Under the pieces are notes generated by a model. It had not been told where the DNA came from, did not search any database, and saw nothing but the letters and a program-made list of their open reading frames with translations. From Alphaproteobacteria bacterium (GTDB lineage Bacteria > Pseudomonadota > Alphaproteobacteria > UBA8366 > Aestuariispiraceae): a stretch of 64,000 bases of DNA. The stretch spans positions 644,001 through 708,000 of the forward strand of contig JASJDC010000002.1 in the NCBI GenBank assembly GCA_030065235.1. Direction: 5' to 3'. Every line of letters begins with the position of its first letter. Positions within the stretch are counted from its first letter, which is position 1. Shown here piece after piece: positions 5,325 to 48,208 of this stretch. The position numbers and the translations under genes are program-made.

Positions 5325-8042
5325 ATGAGCGCCGCCGCCAAACCCGACCCGACCGGCGAAAAATCGCCAACGCAAGCCGATGATACTGCGCGGCGGCGCG
5401 GCAAGTCGGCCGACGCCGCGACCCCGATGATGAGCCAATATCTCGCCATCAAAGCGGCGCACGCCGATTGCCTGTTATTCTATCGGATGGGCGACTTTTA
5501 CGAGCTATTCTTCGACGATGCGGTAGAGGCGGCCGCCGCGCTCGACATCACGCTGACCAAGCGCGGCCAACATCAAGGCGACGACATTCCGATGTGCGGC
5601 GTCCCGGTGCACGCCGCCGACGGCTATTTGGCGCGGCTGATCCGAAAAGGCTTCCGCGTCGCGGTCTGCGAACAAACCGAAGACCCGGCGGAGGCCAAAA
5701 AGCGCGGGGCGAAGTCGGTGGTTGCGCGGGATGTGGTGCGCATCGTCACGCCGGGCACGCTGACCGAGGATGCGCTGCTGGATGCGCGCACGAACAATTA
5801 TCTGGCCGCGCTGGCGCGCGCGCAGGGCGGCTTGGCCCTAGCCTGGCTCGATGTCTCGACCGGCGTTTTCGCCGTGCAATCGGTGACGCCGGCGACCCTG
5901 TCCGCCGTCTTGGCGCGGGTCGGTCCCAGCGAGATCATCTGCCCCGAGCGCGTCACCCAGGATGCGGCGCTGTTCGACATTTTCGCGGATTGGCGCGAAG
6001 CCCTGGCGCCGCAGGCTGACAGCCTGTTCGATTCAATCAATGGCGAGCGCCGCCTGGAGGATCTGTTCGGCGTCGCCTCGCTGGATGCGTTCGGGGATTT
6101 CAGCCGCGCCGACCTTTCCGCCGCCGGGGCTTTGGTCGACTACGTGACGCTGACCCAAGTCGGCAAGGCGCCCAACCTGCAGCCGTTGCGGCGGTTTAGC
6201 GCCGGGGCGGTGATGGAAATCGACCCGGCGACCCGGCGCAATCTGGAGCTAACCCGGACGCTCGGCGGCGACCGTAAAGGCAGCCTTTTGGCGACGGTGG
6301 ATTTCACCGTGACCGGCGCCGGCGCGCGGCTGCTCGCGAATCGGCTCTCGGCGCCGTTGACCGATCCGGAGGCCATCGCGGCGCGGCTGGAGTCTGTCAG
6401 CTATTTCGTCGACGCAACTGCGCTCTGCGACGCCGTGCGGGATCTATTGCGCGCCCTGCCGGACCTGGAACGCGCGCTGGCGCGGCTGACCGTCGGGCGC
6501 GGCGGTCCGCGCGACCTGCTCGCCCTGCGCGAAGGGTTGCGGCAGGTTCCCCGCCTGAAGGCCCTTTTGGGACAGACGGAGACGCCGCCGCCTGCGGACC
6601 TGGCGGAAGCCGAGCGCGATCTCGGCCTGCATGAGGTCTTTGTCGACAAGCTCGATCGGGCGCTGATCGACGAACCCCCGGCCCTTGCGCGCGACGGCGG
6701 GTTCATCCGGCAAGCCTATGCGCCGCATTTGGACGAGGTTCGAAAACTGCGCGACGAAAGCCGCCGGCTGATCGCCAATCTCGAAGCGCGCTATCGCCGA
6801 GAAACCGGCGCCGAGACGCTGAAGATCAAACACAACAATGTCTTAGGCTATTTCATCGAGGTAACAGCGAAACATGCGGAGAAGATCGGCGACGGCTTCA
6901 TCCATCGCCAATCCATGGCCAATGCGACCCGCTTCTCGACGCCGGAGCTGGCGGACCTGGCCCGCGCCATCGCTGAGGCGGGCGACAAGGCCCTGGCGAT
7001 GGAGGAGGAAATCTTCGCCGATCTGACCGGCGAAGCGACCGCGCGCGCCGGCGAGATCGCCCTGGCCGCCGCGGGTTTCGCGATCTTCGATTGGGCTTCG
7101 GCCGGCGCGGAGCTGGCGCGACGGCGGCGCTACAACCGGCCGACGGTCACCGGCGGGCTGGACTTCACCATCACGCAAGGCCGGCATCCGGTGGTTGAAG
7201 CGGCGCTGAGCGCGGCAGCGGAGGATTTCGTCGCCAATGATTGCGCGCTTGAGCCGGAGCAGCGTCTCTGGCTTCTGACCGGCCCCAACATGGCCGGCAA
7301 GAGCACCTTTCTGAGGCAGAACGCCTTGATCGCGATCCTCGCCCAGTCCGGCTATTTCACGCCGGCGGAGAACGCCCGAATCGGCGCCGTGGATCGGTTG
7401 TTCAGCCGCGTCGGGGCGTCCGACGATCTGGCGCGCGGGCGGTCGACCTTCATGGTCGAGATGGTCGAGACCGCCACCATCCTGAACCAGGCGACGGAGC
7501 GCTCGCTGGTGATCCTGGACGAGATCGGGCGCGGCACCGCGACCTTCGACGGCCTTTCGATCGCCTGGGCCTGCGTCGAGCATCTGCATGACGGGTCCAA
7601 GGCGCGCGCGCTTTTCGCGACCCATTATCACGAACTGACCGCTCTTTCCGAACGCCTGCCCGCCCTGGCGCCGCATTGCCTGCAGGTGAAGGAATGGCGG
7701 GGCGAGGTCGTGTTTCTGCATTCGGTCGGACCCGGCGCCGCCGATCGCTCCTACGGCATCCATGTGGCGCGGTTGGCGGGGCTGCCCGCCCCGGTCGTTT
7801 CGCGTGCGGAACAGGTGCTGCATGCGCTCGAGCGCGGCGAACAATCGGGCGCCGTCACGCGTCTCGTCGACGACCTGCCGCTGTTTCAGGCGGCGGCGTG
7901 GGGAACTCCGGAACCGACGCCTGCTTCCGGTCCCAGCGCGCTTGAAACCGCGCTGACGGAAATCGATCCCGACGCCTTGTCGCCGCGCGACGCGTTGGAG
8001 GCGCTGTACCGTTTGAAAGCGCTTTCTCAAGACGGCGACTGA
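5325..8042 (+). CDS. mutS: DNA mismatch repair protein MutS
   Basis: MutS recognises base mismatches and small loops and starts methyl- or nick-directed repair with MutL. The 905-residue product has the mismatch-binding FYELFFDDA motif (the Phe that wedges at the mismatch) near residue 60. Connector, lever and clamp domains follow. The ATPase has Walker [11 protein letters not shown] near residue 660, Walker [11 protein letters not shown] and the FATHYHEL switch. An N-terminal extension of about 35 residues precedes the conserved core. An AAGG element lies just before the ATG. glnD follows 91 nt downstream on the same strand. Confidence 0.97.
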
Positions 8043-8133
8043 CCGGCTGACCCGCGACGCAACCGCCGCAAACGCGCAAAGCCGAACGATTTCCCGCTCG
8101 CTTCACGGCGCCACCGCCCCTATCTTCCCTGCA

Positions 8134-10944
8134 ATGGATTTCACTTCGATCAAAAAGCGGCGCGCGATTATCGACCGCAAGGGGCTGACTCTGGCGCTGG
8201 AAGCGGTGCTGGAGCGAAGGCTCGCCGACGCTGAAGACCGGGCGGCGCGCCTCTCCCTGCTGAAAGAAGCGTTGGCGCGCGGCCGCGCCGAGGTGAAACG
8301 CCGGTTCATGGCCGATCAGGACGGCGCTGTGGCTGTGGCGGGGCTGGCTTTTCTGGTCGATCAACTGGTCCGGGTTCTCTATGACATCGCGTCCCGGCGG
8401 CTCTATCCCAGCGCCAACCCGACCAAGGAAGAGCTGCTCGCGATCGCGGCGGTCGGCGGCTATGGCCGCGGCGAGCTGGCGCCGCAATCGGACGTCGATC
8501 TGCTGTTCATTCACAGCTACAAGCTGACCGCCCGCTCCGAACAGATCGTCGAGAACATCCTCTACACGCTCTGGGACCTCGGCCTGACCGTCGGTCACGC
8601 GACCCGGTCGGTCGACGAATGCATCCGCCAAGCCAAGAGCGACGTCACCATCACGACGGCGATGCTGGAGGCGCGGTTCGTCTGGGGCGAGCGCAGCCTC
8701 TATGACAGGTTTCGCCGGGCCTTCGAGAAATCAGTGCTCAGCGCCGGCGGCGCCGCCTTCCTCGAAGCCAAGCTGCGCGAACGGGATGAGCGGCACGGAC
8801 GGTTGGGCGACAGCCGCTATGTCTTGGAGCCGAACATCAAGGACGGCAAGGGCGGGTTGCGCGACCTGCATACGCTCTATTGGGCGGCGAAATATCTCTA
8901 CCGCGTGCGGACGCTTGAGGAGCTGGTCGAGCGCAAGATGCTGACCAAGCGTGAGTTGGCGCGATTCGACAAAGCGCAGCAGTTCCTCTGGACCCTGCGC
9001 TGCCACCTCCACTATCTGACCGGCCGGGCCGAGGAGCGCCTGACCTTCGACATCCAGCCGGAACTGGCCCGGCGGATGGGCTATGTCGGCCGCAACGGCG
9101 CCAGCGGCGTCGAGCGGTTCATGAAACACTATTTCCTGATCGCCAAGGATGTCGGCGATTTGACGCGGATCTTCTGCGCCGGGTTCGAAGCGCAGCATCA
9201 GAAAATACCGCTCTTCAGTCTCGCGCGCTTCGCCAGCGACAAGGTGGTCGAGGGCTTCCCGGTCAACGCCGGCCGTCTCGATCGCCCCGAGCGCGCCTGG
9301 TTCAAGTCGAACCCGGTCGACATGTTGCGGATTTTCGACGTGTCGCACCGCACCGGGCTCGACATTCACCCGGACGCGCTGCGCTCAATCACCCGGCATC
9401 TGCGCGCGATCGACACCGAAACCCGCGACGACCCCAAAGCGAACGCGCTGTTTCTGGGGATTCTCTGCAGCAATAAAAATCCGGAAACGACGCTGCGCCG
9501 GATGAATGAATGCGGGCTGTTCGGCCGTTTCATGCCCGATTTCGGCCGGGTCGTCGCGCAGATGCAGTATGACATGTACCATGTCTACACGACCGATGAG
9601 CACACGATCCGCGCCATCGGCATCCTCAACCGGATCGAGGCGCAGGAACTGACCGACGATCACCCGCTCGCCTCGAAGATCATCTCGAAGGTGCTGTCGC
9701 GCGAAGTGCTCTATGTCGCGCTGTTACTGCATGACATCGCCAAGGGCCGCGGCGGCGATCACAGCACCCTCGGCGCCGACGTCGCCCGTGAGGTTTGCCC
9801 GAAACTGGGATTCAACGAGGAGCAGACGGAAACCATCGCCTGGTTGGTCTTTTATCACCTCGCGATGTCGAACACGGCTTTCAAACGCGACATTGACGAT
9901 CCCAAGACAGTCGCCGATTTCGTTGCGCTGGTGCAGTCGCCGGAACGGCTGCGGCTGCTGCTCTGCCTGACGGTCTGCGATATCCGCGCCGTCGGTCCGA
10001 GTGTCTGGAACAATTGGAAAGCGACCCTGCTGCGCGACCTATATTACCGAGCGGAAGCGCTGATCACCGAAGGCCTTGAGAGCGGCGGGCGCGAGGCGCG
10101 CGCCGAGGTCGCGCGCCGGGATCTCAATCAGGCGCTTGCCGGCGCATCCTGGCCGCAAGAGTGGGTCGAGACGCATATCGGCCGATTACCGGATCCTTAC
10201 CTGCTGGCGAGCGACGTCGGGACGCTGGTGAAACACGCCGAAATGATCCGCGACGCCGAGGCGCGGGGGCAGCCGCTGGCCATCGACGCGCGCGTCTTGG
10301 CCGACAAGGACGTCACCGAGGTGACGATCTTCGCCCAGGACCATCCCGGCCTGTTCAACCGGCTGAGCGGCGCGCTGGCGGTCTGCGGCGCCAGCATCGT
10401 GGATGCGCGGATCACGACACTGAAAGACGGCATGGCGCTGGATGTCTTCACCGTCCAGGACGCAGCGGCCGGCGGCGCTTTCAAGTCCTCCTCGAAGCTG
10501 GCGCGGCTCTCGGTTCTGGTCGAACAGGTGCTGTCGGGCCGGATCAGCCCGCTCGAGGAGTTGGACAAGCGCGCGACTCAGCTGCCGAGCCGGATGGAGG
10601 CCTTCTCCGTGCCGCCGCGCGTCCTGATCGACAACGGCGCGTCCAACACGCACACGCTGATCGAGGTGAACGGCCGCGACCGTTCGGCGCTGGTCTATCG
10701 CCTAACCCGCGCCCTAATCGGGCTTGGGCTACAGATCTCGACGGCGAAGATTTCGACCTTTGGCGAGCGCGTGGTCGACGCATTCTATGTTAAAGACGTC
10801 TTCGGCATGAAAGTGACCCACGAGGCGAAACTGGCCGAAATCCGCAAGACCCTGCTCGCCGTCCTCGACGCCGCCAACCCGGACCCGCCCGGCGCCTCCG
10901 AGAGTGACAACCCGGCCGTCGCCGCGCGCCTGGCGGCGGAGTAG
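8134..10944 (+). CDS. glnD: Bifunctional [protein-PII] uridylyltransferase/uridylyl-removing enzyme
   Basis: GlnD senses glutamine and reversibly uridylylates PII proteins, setting nitrogen metabolism. The 936 residues show the full layout. The nucleotidyltransferase domain has GGYGRGELAPQSDVDLLF with the metal-binding D-x-D (about 110-127). A GlnE/GlnD linker comes next. The HD domain (LLLHDIAKGRGGDHS, about 530-545) removes UMP. Two C-terminal ACT domains bind glutamine, beginning near EVTIFAQDHPG and HTLIEVNGRDRS. No strong ribosome-binding site precedes the ATG. Its neighbour mutS is a common alphaproteobacterial partner. It converges on an acetyltransferase gene nine bases downstream. 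Confidence 0.96.
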   Translation: MDFTSIKKRRAIIDRKGLTLALEAVLERRLADAEDRAARLSLLKEALARGRAEVKRRFMADQDGAVAVAGLAFLVDQLVRVLYDIASRRLYPSANPTKEELLAIAAVGGYGRGELAPQSDVDLLFIHSYKLTARSEQIVENILYTLWDLGLTVGHATRSVDECIRQAKSDVTITTAMLEARFVWGERSLYDRFRRAFEKSVLSAGGAAFLEAKLRERDERHGRLGDSRYVLEPNIKDGKGGLRDLHTLYWAAKYLYRVRTLEELVERKMLTKRELARFDKAQQFLWTLRCHLHYLTGRAEERLTFDIQPELARRMGYVGRNGASGVERFMKHYFLIAKDVGDLTRIFCAGFEAQHQKIPLFSLARFASDKVVEGFPVNAGRLDRPERAWFKSNPVDMLRIFDVSHRTGLDIHPDALRSITRHLRAIDTETRDDPKANALFLGILCSNKNPETTLRRMNECGLFGRFMPDFGRVVAQMQYDMYHVYTTDEHTIRAIGILNRIEAQELTDDHPLASKIISKVLSREVLYVALLLHDIAKGRGGDHSTLGADVAREVCPKLGFNEEQTETIAWLVFYHLAMSNTAFKRDIDDPKTVADFVALVQSPERLRLLLCLTVCDIRAVGPSVWNNWKATLLRDLYYRAEALITEGLESGGREARAEVARRDLNQALAGASWPQEWVETHIGRLPDPYLLASDVGTLVKHAEMIRDAEARGQPLAIDARVLADKDVTEVTIFAQDHPGLFNRLSGALAVCGASIVDARITTLKDGMALDVFTVQDAAAGGAFKSSSKLARLSVLVEQVLSGRISPLEELDKRATQLPSRMEAFSVPPRVLIDNGASNTHTLIEVNGRDRSALVYRLTRALIGLGLQISTAKISTFGERVVDAFYVKDVFGMKVTHEAKLAEIRKTLLAVLDAANPDPPGASESDNPAVAARLAAE

Positions 10945-42186: not shown

Positions 42187-43962
42187 CTACTCCGCCGCGC
42201 GCGCGACCAGCTCATCGACGGTATAGAGCGCAACCGGCGCCTCGCGTCCGCGGATCGGCATGGAGCCGATGGCCCGTAGCGGGATCTCCTCGACCAGCGC
42301 CGCCGTGGTCCCCGAGACCAAGATCGTCGTTTCCGTTTCTTTGTTCATTTGCTCCAGCCGGGCGGCGACATTCACCGCGTCGCCATGGACCGTGTAGCTC
42401 AAGCGGTTCGACGCCCCGACGGCGCCGCTGACCAACGGCCCGGTATTCACCCCGATCCGGCAGCTCAACTGCTGGCCCGCAAAACGCTCATCTCGGGCGG
42501 CCTCGCAAATCGTCTGCGCCGATTTCACCGCGTGGTAAGCGTGATCCGGGTCTTCAACCGGTGTGTTGAAAACGGCGACAACGGCGTCGCCCTGGAATTG
42601 CGTGACCACGCCCTTGTTCTCTTCGATGATTTCGACCGCACGCGAGAAGAAGGCGTTCATCGTTTCGATCACCTGCCGGGGCGTCATCTTCTCCGACATG
42701 CTGGAGAAGCCTGCGATATCGAGGAAAAAGACCGTCGCGGTGGCTTGCCGCGGTTCTGAGGCGCCCTCGTCCGAGATCAGCATTTTCGCGACATTTTCCG
42801 GCACATATTTGCCGAACAGATCGCGGATTTTCGCCCGCTCGCGCAGGCCGTCGACCATGCCGTTGAAGGCGTGGGCCGCCTCGTTCAACTCGATCAATCG
42901 GCTTGGCCGCAAAGTCGGCGTGCCGTCCAGGTCGCCGCGCTCGACGCTGCGCGCGGCCTCGGCGAAGGCGCGAATGGGCCGTGCGGCGCGGGCCCCGATC
43001 CACAGAGCCACCGCCAAGGACGCCACCACCAACGCGACGCCAACGGCGATGCTGACATAGAGACGGTTGATCTCGGCGTCGCCGGCGGCCCTTTCGAAAT
43101 GTACGCCGATGGTCACCCGCCCGCCGGTTTGGCGGTAGGTGTCTTGGCGCACGGCGAAGACCTGATCGTCCAAGCCGGGCTTGGCCAAAAAGAAAATATC
43201 GGCGTTCTCGATCGGCGCCACCAGACGCGGGGTCAGACGATCCGCGGTCGCCAACGCCATCAAATAGGGGTCGTCCACATCGTCGATCGTCGGTCTGAAA
43301 TTCGGGCCGGCGTCGGCCAGATTCGGATGCGCCAGCACGACCCGGTCGTTGAACAGTAAGAAGCGCGTCAGCGAGAAGCCTCGAAACTCGGCGTCCTGCG
43401 ACAACCTCTGGGACAACAGAGACGGATCGATCCGGATGCCGAACGTGCCGAGCGGCGCGCCATCCCCATCCCGAGCCGTGCTCACGAAAGTGGCGCGATG
43501 CGAGCCATCAAGGGCTGAAGGCCGCAGGACCCAGACGCCGCCGGCGCGGACGCCGCGGTCGGAAACGCGCCACCCGCGCGGCCAGGTCACCGATGTAATC
43601 GCCCCCGTCGCGCGGTCGTAATAGAAGCCTGCGCCGTCCGGCAATTGATAGGTCACCGCCTCGATCTGCGGTTGGGTCGAGAGGGCGCCGGCCAGAACCA
43701 ACTGCATCGCCTGGGCGTCGCCGGGGGCGATGACGCCATCCTCGACCGCTTCGGTCAGCCAGCGCGCTTCCGCTTCCGCCATCCCGTAGAACAGACGCGA
43801 TTCCTGTTCCGCCTCTTCGAGCAGCTTTTCAACTTCGAACGACAGGGCGAGCTGGGTGTTCTCCACCGCCTGTTGCAGCGCCAGCACCAAGAGCGCCATG
43901 GCGGAAACCAGGACAAGCCCGCCGAAGCTCAGGATCAGAACGGTGACGACGCGAAACTTCAT
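42187..43962 (-). CDS. Membrane-bound class III adenylate/guanylate cyclase, second of tandem pair
   Basis: A 591-residue receptor-type cyclase. A membrane helix (8-30), a periplasmic sensory region (about 31-295, Cache-like), a second helix (about 301-322), a HAMP linker (about 323-375) and a cyclase domain (about 405-575) follow in order. Metal ligands Asp415 and Asp459 and transition-state Asn531/Arg535 are present. The purine-reading Lys position is Gln455 (TQFQGDA) and the partner position is Thr524. The nucleotide made is therefore unclear. It lies 8 nt after its paralogue in an apparent operon led by an AraC gene. Confidence 0.87.
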   Translation of the reverse strand: MKFRVVTVLILSFGGLVLVSAMALLVLALQQAVENTQLALSFEVEKLLEEAEQESRLFYGMAEAEARWLTEAVEDGVIAPGDAQAMQLVLAGALSTQPQIEAVTYQLPDGAGFYYDRATGAITSVTWPRGWRVSDRGVRAGGVWVLRPSALDGSHRATFVSTARDGDGAPLGTFGIRIDPSLLSQRLSQDAEFRGFSLTRFLLFNDRVVLAHPNLADAGPNFRPTIDDVDDPYLMALATADRLTPRLVAPIENADIFFLAKPGLDDQVFAVRQDTYRQTGGRVTIGVHFERAAGDAEINRLYVSIAVGVALVVASLAVALWIGARAARPIRAFAEAARSVERGDLDGTPTLRPSRLIELNEAAHAFNGMVDGLRERAKIRDLFGKYVPENVAKMLISDEGASEPRQATATVFFLDIAGFSSMSEKMTPRQVIETMNAFFSRAVEIIEENKGVVTQFQGDAVVAVFNTPVEDPDHAYHAVKSAQTICEAARDERFAGQQLSCRIGVNTGPLVSGAVGASNRLSYTVHGDAVNVAARLEQMNKETETTILVSGTTAALVEEIPLRAIGSMPIRGREAPVALYTVDELVARAAE

Positions 43963-43970
43963 GCTGCGCT

Positions 43971-45902
43971 TTACTCGGCCGCATTGGCCGCCGTGTTCGC
44001 CGCAGCCCTCGATTCGGCCTTCGCCGTCGCCGCCGCGCCGGTCGATCCACTGACCGTCATGCCGGGCCCGGGCTCGTTGACGTCGATTGTGAAGACCCGC
44101 ACGGCGGTGTCGCGGCCGCGCACCGGCATCGACCCGATTTCCTGATAGGGATAGTCCGGGGTCAGGCTGACGGTGGTTTCCGAGGCGAGGAGCTTGGTGC
44201 CGGTCTCCTTGTTCATTTGCTCAAGCCGTGCGGCCAGGTTCACCGCATCGCCATGCACCGTGTAGCTGAGCCGGTTCGTCGCCCCCACAGCGCCCGCCAC
44301 CAATTCGCCGGTATTCACCCCGACCCGACAGCAGAGTGTCTGGCCGGCGAACGTGTTGGTCGCAACCGATCGTTCGATCCGAACCGCCGCCCGGATCGCC
44401 GCCCCGGCGTGATCAGCCTGTTCCACCGGCAGATTAAAGACGGCCAAGATCGCATCGCCCTGGAACTGCGTGACCATGCCGCCTTCGGCCTCGATCTCGC
44501 TTACGGCTTCGGAGAAGAACGCGTTCAGCGTCGCGACCACTTCGGTCGGCGACAGGTTCTGAGCCATGCTGGTGAAGCCCGCAAGATCGAGAAAGAGCAC
44601 CGTCGCCGTGGTGTTTTTCGGCTGGTCCGCCAGCTCGTTGCGCATCAGCAATTGCGCGACGCCTTCCGGCACATAGCGGCCGAACAATTCACGCACCCGC
44701 TGCCGATCGCGCAGCCGCTCGACCATCCGGTTCAAGGATTGAGTCGCATCGTTATATTCTTGCACCCGGCTGCCTTCGAGCGGGGTGAAGCTCGCGATCG
44801 CGCCTTCGTCGATCGTCCTCGCCGCTTCCGCAAATTCTCGGATCGGCGACGCCAGTTTCCGGCCAAGTATGACTGCGCCGACGCCGGCGAGCGCCAGAAT
44901 CACCAGGCCGGCGGCAAGCAGCTGCAGCATAGCGGCGAAATCGGCGGCGCCGGCGTCCGTCTCCAAATAAGCGCCGATCGCGACATCCGATTCGGACCTC
45001 TCAGAGAAGGGACGCCGCACAACGGCGACATATTCCTGCTCGCCGACCTCCGCGTCTTCGACTTCGACAATGGCGACTTCATCCGGACCCGTCGCTTGGA
45101 AAAAGTTCGGGATAAACACATCGCCTAAGAAAAGCTTGTCGAGGACACGGTCGCCGGAATCCGGGATCTGCGGCGCCTCGCCGACCCAGCCTTCGCTGAG
45201 CAGCGTCGAATGCGCGATCACATTTCGCCGATCGGTCACCAGGAAACGGGTCACTTCAAAACCCTGATAATCCGACCCTTCGCTGAATATCCGGCTCAGG
45301 CCGCCCACATCCGCAAAGACTTCCAGAACGCCATAGTCGTCGTCGCCATCGATCACCGGCGTGATGCGGCCGCCGCGAACCTGTTCGCTGCCCGGCATTT
45401 CACGCACACGCCATTTAGGGCCATCGACCTTCAAGTAATCCGGACTGGGCAGAGAGTCGTCGCGCGGCGCGGTGCGCCAGGTCCGGTCTTCGAGATCGAC
45501 AAAAATCCGCGCTTTCGTCGGATCGGAAGGATGAAAGATGGCGTAGCGCGCCTGTGGCTTCGGCCCAAAGGCGAATTGGATCGCATTGGCCAAGGCGACC
45601 GGTTCATCCGGCGCGAGACGCCCTTGGATCATTTCCTCAGCCAACCAATCACTGATATCTTCCACCGGCATCAAGAAGGAAGCGGCGAGGGTCTCCACCT
45701 CGTTCGCCAACGCTTCGATGCGGCTGGAGAGGATCCTGTCGGTCTGGTGCGACATGTTGATCATAGCGACGAGGAAAACCGCGCCGGCGGACAGCGCCAC
45801 CAGGCCCCCCAAGGTCGCGACCATCAACGCCGTAATGCTGAACTTCGTCCGTCGCGCCGACGCCTCAAGTGTCACAGGCAGGGAGGCTTGCTGGTCGATC
45901 AT
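43971..45902 (-). CDS. Membrane-bound class III adenylate/guanylate cyclase, first of tandem pair
   Basis: A 643-residue paralogue of the next cyclase gene, with the same order: helix (about 27-50), periplasmic sensory region (about 51-325), helix (about 326-346), HAMP (about 347-400) and cyclase domain (about 432-605). Asp439, Asp483, Asn555 and Arg559 are in place, and Gln479 and Thr548 occupy the purine-recognition positions, as in the paralogue. The tail after about 610 is Ala-rich and unconserved. Its ATG lies 2 nt after the AraC gene stop, so co-transcription is nearly certain. The sensory regions differ, suggesting two ligands. Confidence 0.87.
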   Translation of the reverse strand: MIDQQASLPVTLEASARRTKFSITALMVATLGGLVALSAGAVFLVAMINMSHQTDRILSSRIEALANEVETLAASFLMPVEDISDWLAEEMIQGRLAPDEPVALANAIQFAFGPKPQARYAIFHPSDPTKARIFVDLEDRTWRTAPRDDSLPSPDYLKVDGPKWRVREMPGSEQVRGGRITPVIDGDDDYGVLEVFADVGGLSRIFSEGSDYQGFEVTRFLVTDRRNVIAHSTLLSEGWVGEAPQIPDSGDRVLDKLFLGDVFIPNFFQATGPDEVAIVEVEDAEVGEQEYVAVVRRPFSERSESDVAIGAYLETDAGAADFAAMLQLLAAGLVILALAGVGAVILGRKLASPIREFAEAARTIDEGAIASFTPLEGSRVQEYNDATQSLNRMVERLRDRQRVRELFGRYVPEGVAQLLMRNELADQPKNTTATVLFLDLAGFTSMAQNLSPTEVVATLNAFFSEAVSEIEAEGGMVTQFQGDAILAVFNLPVEQADHAGAAIRAAVRIERSVATNTFAGQTLCCRVGVNTGELVAGAVGATNRLSYTVHGDAVNLAARLEQMNKETGTKLLASETTVSLTPDYPYQEIGSMPVRGRDTAVRVFTIDVNEPGPGMTVSGSTGAAATAKAESRAAANTAANAAE

Positions 45903-45904
45903 TG

Positions 45905-46759
45905 CTATGCCGCATCCTTGGTCATAAAGGCGGTCGGCGTCCGGCCGACCGCTTTGCGAAACATGGCGATGAAGGCCGACGGACTTTCATAGCCGAGATC
46001 AAACGCCACTGTGGTCACCGGCGCGCCGGCGGAAAGCCGTTCGACCGCCGTCACGATCTTCAAGCGCCGCCGCCATTCGCCGAGCGACAGGCCTGTCTCC
46101 TCGACAAAGCGGCGGGCGAGGGTCCTTGGGCTGGCCCCCACCCGGGACGCCAGCGCGGCCGCCGGTTCGGCGTTTCCAAGATCGTTCAGCAGCAAATCAG
46201 CCAGTCGCTTCAATCGAGGATCGCGCGGCATCGGGAGATGCAAGGGCGCTTCCTCCTCCATGGCGAGGATCTGATCAAGCAGGACCTGCATCAACCGCCC
46301 GTCCGGTCCGTCTTGGTTATAGTCTGTCGGCAGCCGCGCGGTTCGTCGAATGATCTCACGCAAAAGCGGCGTTACATGCAGCACCCGGCAGCGCGCGCCA
46401 AGCGGACCGGCCCAATCCTTGGCGACGTAGACGCTGCGGAACGCGGCGCCGGTGGTCGGGCTGGTGATGGCGTGCTCGATATCCGGCGGCAGCCAGACCG
46501 CCCGCGCCGGCGGCACGGTCCAAGCGCCGAAATCCGTCCTCACCACCAAGATGCCTTCCGATGCATAGGCGAGTTGACCCCAGGCATGGCTATGCGGCGT
46601 GAATTCGCCGCCTGCGGGCATTTCAAACGCGCGCACCATCAGCGGTCGGATCATCTGGGACGGTATCGGACCGCGCATGGCGTAAGTCGGAACAGGTCTC
46701 GCCGTCCCAAGATCGGCGGGCTGGTCCTGTTCCGGCGCGTTTTGGCCATCTTTCAACAT
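45905..46759 (-). CDS. AraC family transcriptional regulator with cupin sensor domain
   Basis: A 284-residue AraC-type protein. The N-terminal cupin half contains GGEFTPHSHAWGQLAYASEG, a common ligand pocket. The C-terminal double HTH (about 185-280) has ALASRVGASPRTLARRFVEETGLSLGEWRRR and VAFDLGYESPSAFIAMFRKAVGRTP. The group resembles NimR/YdeO-like regulators that control a divergent transporter. Two cyclase genes follow directly on the same strand, and an MFS transporter starts divergently 159 nt away, so either could be its target. Confidence 0.88.
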   Translation of the reverse strand: MLKDGQNAPEQDQPADLGTARPVPTYAMRGPIPSQMIRPLMVRAFEMPAGGEFTPHSHAWGQLAYASEGILVVRTDFGAWTVPPARAVWLPPDIEHAITSPTTGAAFRSVYVAKDWAGPLGARCRVLHVTPLLREIIRRTARLPTDYNQDGPDGRLMQVLLDQILAMEEEAPLHLPMPRDPRLKRLADLLLNDLGNAEPAAALASRVGASPRTLARRFVEETGLSLGEWRRRLKIVTAVERLSAGAPVTTVAFDLGYESPSAFIAMFRKAVGRTPTAFMTKDAA

Positions 46760-46918
46760 CGATTGGCTATTTATCGCAAGATCGCCGTTCGCGCGAGAAG
46801 TATTTCAGTATCGGAGCGAGGGGCGATCCGGTTGTGACTGAGCCTTCGCTTCTCCTCATATGGACTGCGCAGCGCGTTTTGGAAAGGCGCGCCGCCATCA
46901 CGAAAGGGCTAGTCCGCC

Positions 46919-48208
46919 ATGCGTTCGGTACATGACGATCACGCGCCACGCTTTCTTCCCGCCTTTTTGCGCGGGCCGGAGGGCATGCTAGTCATTATGG
47001 CGATGGCGATGGCGGTCAGCATGCATGGCTGGTTCGCCTTGCTGAACAATTTCGTGATCGAGCGGGCCGATTTCACCGGCCGCGAGATCGGCTTCTTGCA
47101 GTCAATCCGAGAGATCCCCGGTTTCTTGTCTTTCTGCGCGATCTTCCTGCTGCCGTTCATCCGGGAACAGAATCTGGCGCTGCTGTCGCTGCTGGCATTG
47201 GGCGTTGGGACGGCGCTGACCGGGTTCTTCCCGACCGAATACGCGCTCTACGCCACGACCTTTCTGATGTCGATGGGGTTTCACTATTACGAGACGATGA
47301 ACCAGTCGCTGACCTTGCAATGGTCGTCGAAAGAGCGGGCCCCGCATGTCTTCGCCCGACAGTTGCGCGCCAGTTCCATCGGCACATTGGCGATCTTCGT
47401 CGTGATCATATTGACCTTTAACCAAGACGTGTTCGACCGGATCGCCGGTTGGTTCGGCGCGACGACATCGATCCGCACCATCTCTTTGGGCTTCGAGCCG
47501 CTCTACCTGATCGCCGGGATCTTCACGATCGCGGTCGGCGTCTTCTGTCACTTCGCCTATCCGCGCTTCAGCGCGCCGCATGTTCAGACGAAGACCCTGT
47601 TCCTGCGCCGGCGCTATTGGCTCTACTACGCGCTGACCTTTATGGGCGGGGCGCGGCGGCAGATTTTCATGGTCTTCGCCGGTTTCATGATGGTCGAGAA
47701 GTTCGGCTATGACGCGACGGCGATCACGCTGCTTTATCTGATAAACCTGATCGCCAACATTTATATCGCGCCCTATATCGGGAAGTTCATCGCCCGGCTG
47801 GGCGAGCGCACGGCGCTGGTCTTCGAATATATCGGCCTGATCGGCGTGTTTATCGGCTATGCTCTGGTCGAGGATCATATGACGGCGGCGGCGCTCTATG
47901 TCATCGATCACCTATTTTTCGCCTTCTCCATCGCCATCAAGACCTATTTCCACAAGATCGCCGATCCGAAGGATATGGCCTCGACCGCCGGCGTCAGCTT
48001 CACCATCAACCATATCGCAGCGGTCGGCATTCCCGCCGCCTTCGGCTTCATCTGGCTGAAGGATCCAGGCGCAGTGTTTTTCATCGGCGCTGGGATGGCG
48101 TTGATCTCGCTGATCCTGGCGCTGAACGTGCCGCGCCATCCGCGGCCGGGAAATGAGGTGACGGTCGGTCGGAGTCCAAACGCGCCCTCCGCGGCGCCGG
48201 CGGAATAG
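46919..48208 (+). CDS. Major facilitator superfamily transporter
   Basis: A 429-residue membrane protein with about 12 hydrophobic helices. GREIGFLQSIREIPGFLSF in the first half and the central break FAYPRFSAPHVQTKTLFLRRRYW fit an MFS fold with a cytosolic loop. There is no clear substrate motif. A conserved block GGARRQIFMVFAGFMMVEKFGY starts the second half. It is divergent from the AraC gene, the usual position for an AraC-controlled exporter, and converges on hinT. The substrate is unknown. Confidence 0.8.
   Translation: MRSVHDDHAPRFLPAFLRGPEGMLVIMAMAMAVSMHGWFALLNNFVIERADFTGREIGFLQSIREIPGFLSFCAIFLLPFIREQNLALLSLLALGVGTALTGFFPTEYALYATTFLMSMGFHYYETMNQSLTLQWSSKERAPHVFARQLRASSIGTLAIFVVIILTFNQDVFDRIAGWFGATTSIRTISLGFEPLYLIAGIFTIAVGVFCHFAYPRFSAPHVQTKTLFLRRRYWLYYALTFMGGARRQIFMVFAGFMMVEKFGYDATAITLLYLINLIANIYIAPYIGKFIARLGERTALVFEYIGLIGVFIGYALVEDHMTAAALYVIDHLFFAFSIAIKTYFHKIADPKDMASTAGVSFTINHIAAVGIPAAFGFIWLKDPGAVFFIGAGMALISLILALNVPRHPRPGNEVTVGRSPNAPSAAPAE

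Follow-up and report, generated by a model that had tools for sequence, protein, structure and literature searches.

The two receptor cyclases encoded at this locus carry glutamine at the position where adenylate cyclases have the adenine-reading lysine. In the alignment and tree of their relatives, this glutamine is a trait fixed throughout an entire alphaproteobacterial branch, and is not special to the probable operon of an AraC-type regulator and the two cyclases. The explanation to which we incline is that both proteins, here called cyc1 and cyc2, are working receptor cyclases that would read the base through an amide and would make mainly cAMP, and that they are tandem duplicates placed beside an AraC–MFS gene pair. 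All positions refer to the window, the whole stretch of 64,000 nucleotides that was analysed.

The regulator and the two cyclases are contiguous on the minus strand (Table 1). The gap between AraC and cyc1 is 2 nt and that between cyc1 and cyc2 is 8 nt; the reading frames, strands and gaps agree exactly with the initial annotation. Pfam places a HAMP and a Guanylate_cyc domain in both cyclases, and the pair matches the class III nucleotidyl cyclase family PF00211 with 92.2 and 84.1 bits against a cut-off of 21.9. The regulator is a member of the AraC/XylS family, with HTH_18 at 79.7 bits and AraC_binding at 40.3 bits, in accordance with the cupin-type AraC protein proposed at the outset. An over-extended start of this gene was considered and rejected, the same start codon being used by its homologues. 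A consensus scan found no promoter-like sites. Judged by the two short gaps only, cyc1 and cyc2 are probably co-transcribed from the AraC promoter.

Table 1. Positions of the genes, motifs and conserved element in the window.
Feature	Positions	Strand	Remarks
AraC-type regulator, cupin-like N-terminal domain	45905..46759	-	284 aa; homologues begin at the equivalent start codon
cyc1: TM, periplasmic sensor, TM, HAMP, class III cyclase	43971..45902	-	643 aa
cyc2: TM, dCache-type sensor (predicted), TM, HAMP, class III cyclase	42187..43962	-	591 aa
MFS transporter, divergent from AraC	46919..48208	+	Pfam MFS_1; conserved AraC neighbour in the family
TQFQGD motif of cyc2, residues 454-459	42586..42603	-	Gln at the Lys position, second Gln at +2
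TQFQGD motif of cyc1, residues 478-483	44454..44471	-	Gln at the Lys position
Conserved 31-bp element, abuts and includes the AraC start codon	46757..46787		Putative promoter/operator of AraC, lying between it and MFS

The catalytic and base-reading residues were located by aligning both proteins with solved enzymes and with the other cyclases of the same genome. In cyc2, the metal-binding pair is formed by Asp415 and Asp459, the transition-state residues are Asn531 and Arg535, and the base-reading positions hold Gln455, with Gln457 next to it, and Thr524. The numbering of cyc1 is higher by 24 (Asp439, Asp483, Gln479, Thr548, Asn555 and Arg559). The glutamine at the lysine position lies within VTQFQGD and the threonine partner within SYTVHGD. 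The alignment thus bears out the intact aspartate pair, the asparagine and arginine, and the glutamine that had been claimed for both enzymes, and these four catalytic residues, together with the PF00211 scores, assign both proteins to class III. Adenylate cyclases read adenine by a lysine plus an aspartate or a threonine, while guanine N1/N2 are read by a glutamate (PMC7384201). Both proteins have the threonine partner of class IIIb adenylate cyclases and glutamine in place of the lysine that faces adenine N1; the glutamate of guanylate cyclases is likewise replaced by this glutamine.

Relatives were taken from 80 genomes, from pattern scans of 385 genomes of the class and 399 of the phylum, and from named plasmids, and a tree of 75 rows was computed with both specificity columns removed. 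In this tree, 41 alphaproteobacterial rows (32 with Gln, eight with Asn and one with Ser at the lysine position) split from all 30 Lys rows, with a support of 99/98; one of these Lys rows comes from 6fht, an engineered form of Cya2, which in the wild type (2w01) has Glu. Gln and Asn were exchanged at least once or twice inside the amide side of the tree. Threonine occupies the partner position in 31 of the 32 Gln rows and in 29 of the 30 Lys rows; being common to both, it is ordinary, and the glutamine alone breaks the code. The initial annotation had therefore placed Thr524 and Thr548 correctly but was mistaken in treating them as anomalous, since lysine with either partner is a normal adenylate cyclase pair (PMC7384201), while its view that the Lys/Asp code cannot give the specificity of these enzymes is upheld.

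The positions of Gln455 and Gln457 are each occupied by glutamine in 32/32 Gln rows and in 0/30 Lys rows. At position 457, two residues beyond the base-reading residue, the residue in the Lys rows is Ile, Met, Ala or Val; we take this position to match Ile940 in mammalian adenylyl cyclase, a residue of the purine pocket wall. The second glutamine would thus set a polar group there, and the shift in specificity could go beyond a simple amide swap. Other columns also separate the Gln from the Lys rows: Thr or Asn versus Asp at 454, Asn versus Gly at 466, and His or Tyr versus mostly aliphatic residues at 526. The occurrence of the glutamine in every Gln row, from many genomes, excludes chance as its source, and its remodelled neighbourhood argues against drift; for columns linked in this way, a clade comparison of such size cannot part function from shared descent.

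The pattern TQ[FY]QGD sits in a cyclase in every genome of the class scan that carries it. The scan of 399 genomes of the phylum found it in no cyclase outside the class, the pattern being a strict one with which absence elsewhere is unproven. Ten loci with the pattern and no cyclase domain, nine outside the class and one inside, were taken as chance occurrences. The proposal that the glutamine predates the duplication is supported and can be extended, as the residue is far older and occurs in several families within the class. Neither a characterised TQFQGD enzyme nor an assayed member of the branch was found, and the motif QFQGD gave no match in the collection of papers searched. Glutamine at the lysine position has a precedent in Rv0386; what appears to be new here is a variant that marks a branch and not a single operon.

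The source genome encodes 14 class III cyclases. Other contigs of it carry a TQFQGD cyclase with a Ser partner (L003), an AQFNGD cyclase with a Ser partner (L007) and an LNLNGD cyclase, of the Asn type, with a Thr partner (L001). Five cyclases (L010, L011, L012, L013 and L014) have Arg at the lysine position, mostly within LRF[IV]GD and once within HRYVGD, with Thr, Ser or Val as partners, and may constitute another specificity group. A separate tandem pair of Gln-type receptor cyclases, with ITQYQGD and ITQFQGD, is found in another alphaproteobacterial family without the AraC and MFS genes (L135, G744:C1:564000-581000, 6539-10375). On plasmids of Sinorhizobium meliloti, an Asn-type cyclase with VVNYIGD and a Thr partner (L106/L107, 3308-4657) has a LysR regulator, aldo/keto reductases, a cupin and DUF4405 as annotated neighbours, and this species is a named, culturable host of an amide-branch cyclase.

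Built on the observed architecture, catalytic residues, clade and synteny, the favoured explanation infers ligand, mechanism and product as follows. Both proteins would belong to an alphaproteobacterial class IIIb branch of ancient origin. The periplasmic Cache-like domain would bind a small molecule and transmit the signal via HAMP to the two catalytic domains which, as expected for the family, would form a dimer whose interface holds the active sites, either a homodimer or possibly a heterodimer. The base would be read by Gln455/479 and by Thr524/548, the usual class IIIb partner, and the glutamine amide could act as a donor towards adenine N1 or as an acceptor for guanine N1/N2. Because such an amide is able to serve either base, the product is probably cAMP made with relaxed specificity, that is, cAMP as the most likely main product with some cGMP. 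It would be sensed by one of the cNMP-binding proteins of the genome, in which ten cNMP-binding domains provide possible receptors. Mycobacterium tuberculosis Rv0386, with a Gln–Asn pair, is reportedly an adenylate cyclase with a guanylate cyclase side activity of about 20%.

It is also conceivable, if doubtful, that the product of the Gln branch is cGMP, alone or along with cAMP at a similar rate, with the glutamine accepting from guanine N1/N2 and the threonine donating to O6. The guanylate cyclase Cya2 from Synechocystis, with Glu at this position and a Gly partner, indicates that a single residue at this site can decide which base is used. A Thr or Ser partner occurs in some guanylate cyclases (PMC4215837), and S. 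meliloti Clr, which answers both cAMP and cGMP, exemplifies an alphaproteobacterial receptor for either nucleotide (PMC10127613). However, the branch has no Glu, and glutamine presents one acceptor and one donor instead of two acceptors. Rv0386, a precedent with Gln at this position, moreover reportedly prefers ATP.

Class III cyclases are numerous in alphaproteobacteria, and the substrate of a cyclase is usually assigned from two residues. For a whole branch with Gln or Asn at the main position, this assignment fails. We put forward only tentatively that the TQFQGD...YTVHGD branch, in receptor and other cyclases, reads the base by a Gln-x-Gln motif and is naturally dual-specific or cGMP-forming. 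If so, it would be a second set of alphaproteobacterial makers of purine cyclic nucleotides, missed by annotation for want of a Glu, and its members would be candidate sources for dual receptors of cAMP and cGMP such as Clr. If instead the branch makes cAMP, it would offer a second natural test of an amide replacing the lysine.

The cyclases cyc1 and cyc2 are full-length paralogues, which align end to end with 39% identity over 602 columns (E=6e-125). Identity amounts to 59% between the catalytic domains and 25% between the sensors, which are diverged copies of one region and not the different periplasmic domains described at first. In Foldseek, a model of the cyc2 sensor (pLDDT 61.5, from a two-sequence alignment) hits dCache domains from chemoreceptors and from histidine kinases (4xmq, E=2.7e-8); Pfam dCache_1 backs this weakly, with 13.6 bits against a cut-off of 45. 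The catalytic-domain model matches solved class III cyclases; the AlphaFold model of the whole protein, with a mean pLDDT of 55 from a two-sequence alignment, is too weak for examining the pocket. A scan of the genome contigs with cyc2 yielded one weak relative only. Compared with the single cyclases of two genomes from another genus in the same family (G003 and G008), the sensor identity is 45-49% for cyc2 and 25-26% for cyc1. The sensor tree likewise groups cyc2 with these cyclases (90/93), but the catalytic tree groups cyc1 with them (97/92). The two trees disagree on the order in which duplication and loss took place, a conflict that recombination or fast evolution of the sensor may explain. 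Judged by sensor and position, cyc2 is the orthologue of the single cyclase.

In 11 of the 13 genomes of the family, the orthologues of AraC and MFS are divergent neighbours, in two of these about 1.2 kb apart; in several of the family genomes the pair is found near his genes. A cyclase stands behind AraC just in the source genome, which has two, and in G003 and G008, which have one each in the order cysZ, cyclase, AraC, MFS, HIT and hisE/F/A/H. Nine of the 11 AraC–MFS genomes have no cyclase there, and their Gln-type cyclases are located elsewhere. The retention of the AraC–MFS pair in genomes without the cyclase implies that the conserved partner of the regulator is the transporter, as suspected from the divergent gene, while the three-gene functional cassette is not supported; from this synteny, the cyclase arrangement behind AraC is lineage-specific. 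It is accordingly improbable that AraC, cyc1 and cyc2 form a dedicated functional cassette in which AraC is partnered with the cyclases and not with MFS: the short gaps and the AraC–cyclase order kept in G003 and G008 would suit such a unit, but the nine genomes speak against it on both counts, in what AraC retains and in where the cyclases lie. We favour an origin of the pair by tandem duplication beside a pre-existing AraC–MFS divergent unit, in which AraC itself would most likely control the MFS gene. The 31-bp element is conserved across 10 genomes, with a mean of 8.2/10 agreeing per column versus 5.4 in 46800-46900. As the AraC start codon lies within it, AraC may be translated from a leaderless mRNA, or the operator may overlap the start.

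That the two proteins are catalytically dead sensors, in which loss of the adenine-reading lysine reflects decay, is very unlikely, since the metal-binding aspartates, the asparagine and the arginine are invariant in 32/32 Gln rows, and both the glutamine and that at +2 are fixed across several families, whereas decay would not fix one residue. Also very unlikely is a pyrimidine cyclase of Pycsar type making cCMP or cUMP: the PADLOC PycC model PDLC00734 matches the pair (E=3e-26 and 8e-27), but it does so generically, as five Lys-type cyclases tested score 98-125 bits and the Gln types 83-92, no PycTM/PycTIR-like effector was matched among the four proteins scanned (the neighbours being AraC and MFS), and the long receptor architecture is against it, so that membership in a Pycsar system was rejected.

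Pycsar PycC has the class III catalytic core in common with cyc1 and cyc2, although Lys-type cyclases fit its model better. The class IIIb adenylate cyclases, such as CyaB from Pseudomonas aeruginosa (3r5g) and OaPAC, are like them in fold, metal-binding aspartate pair, threonine partner, asparagine and arginine, and in having N-terminal regulatory domains; they differ by the lysine, for which cyc1 and cyc2 carry glutamine with a second one two residues later. The guanylate cyclase Cya2 (2w01) is likewise a bacterial class III enzyme with the lysine replaced and a partner other than Asp, but its pair is Glu/Gly where that of cyc1 and cyc2 is Gln/Thr. Rv0386 resembles them by the glutamine that replaces the adenine-reading lysine, and differs by its Asn partner in place of Thr and by being a soluble protein with AAA-ATPase and HTH domains rather than a membrane receptor. 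Among the 28 class III cyclases of S. meliloti, CyaD1, CyaD2 and CyaK are likewise receptor cyclases of an alphaproteobacterium; they sense by an extracytoplasmic domain and feed a CRP-type regulator, and their sensors, unlike those of cyc1 and cyc2, are CHASE2 domains (PMC13001267).
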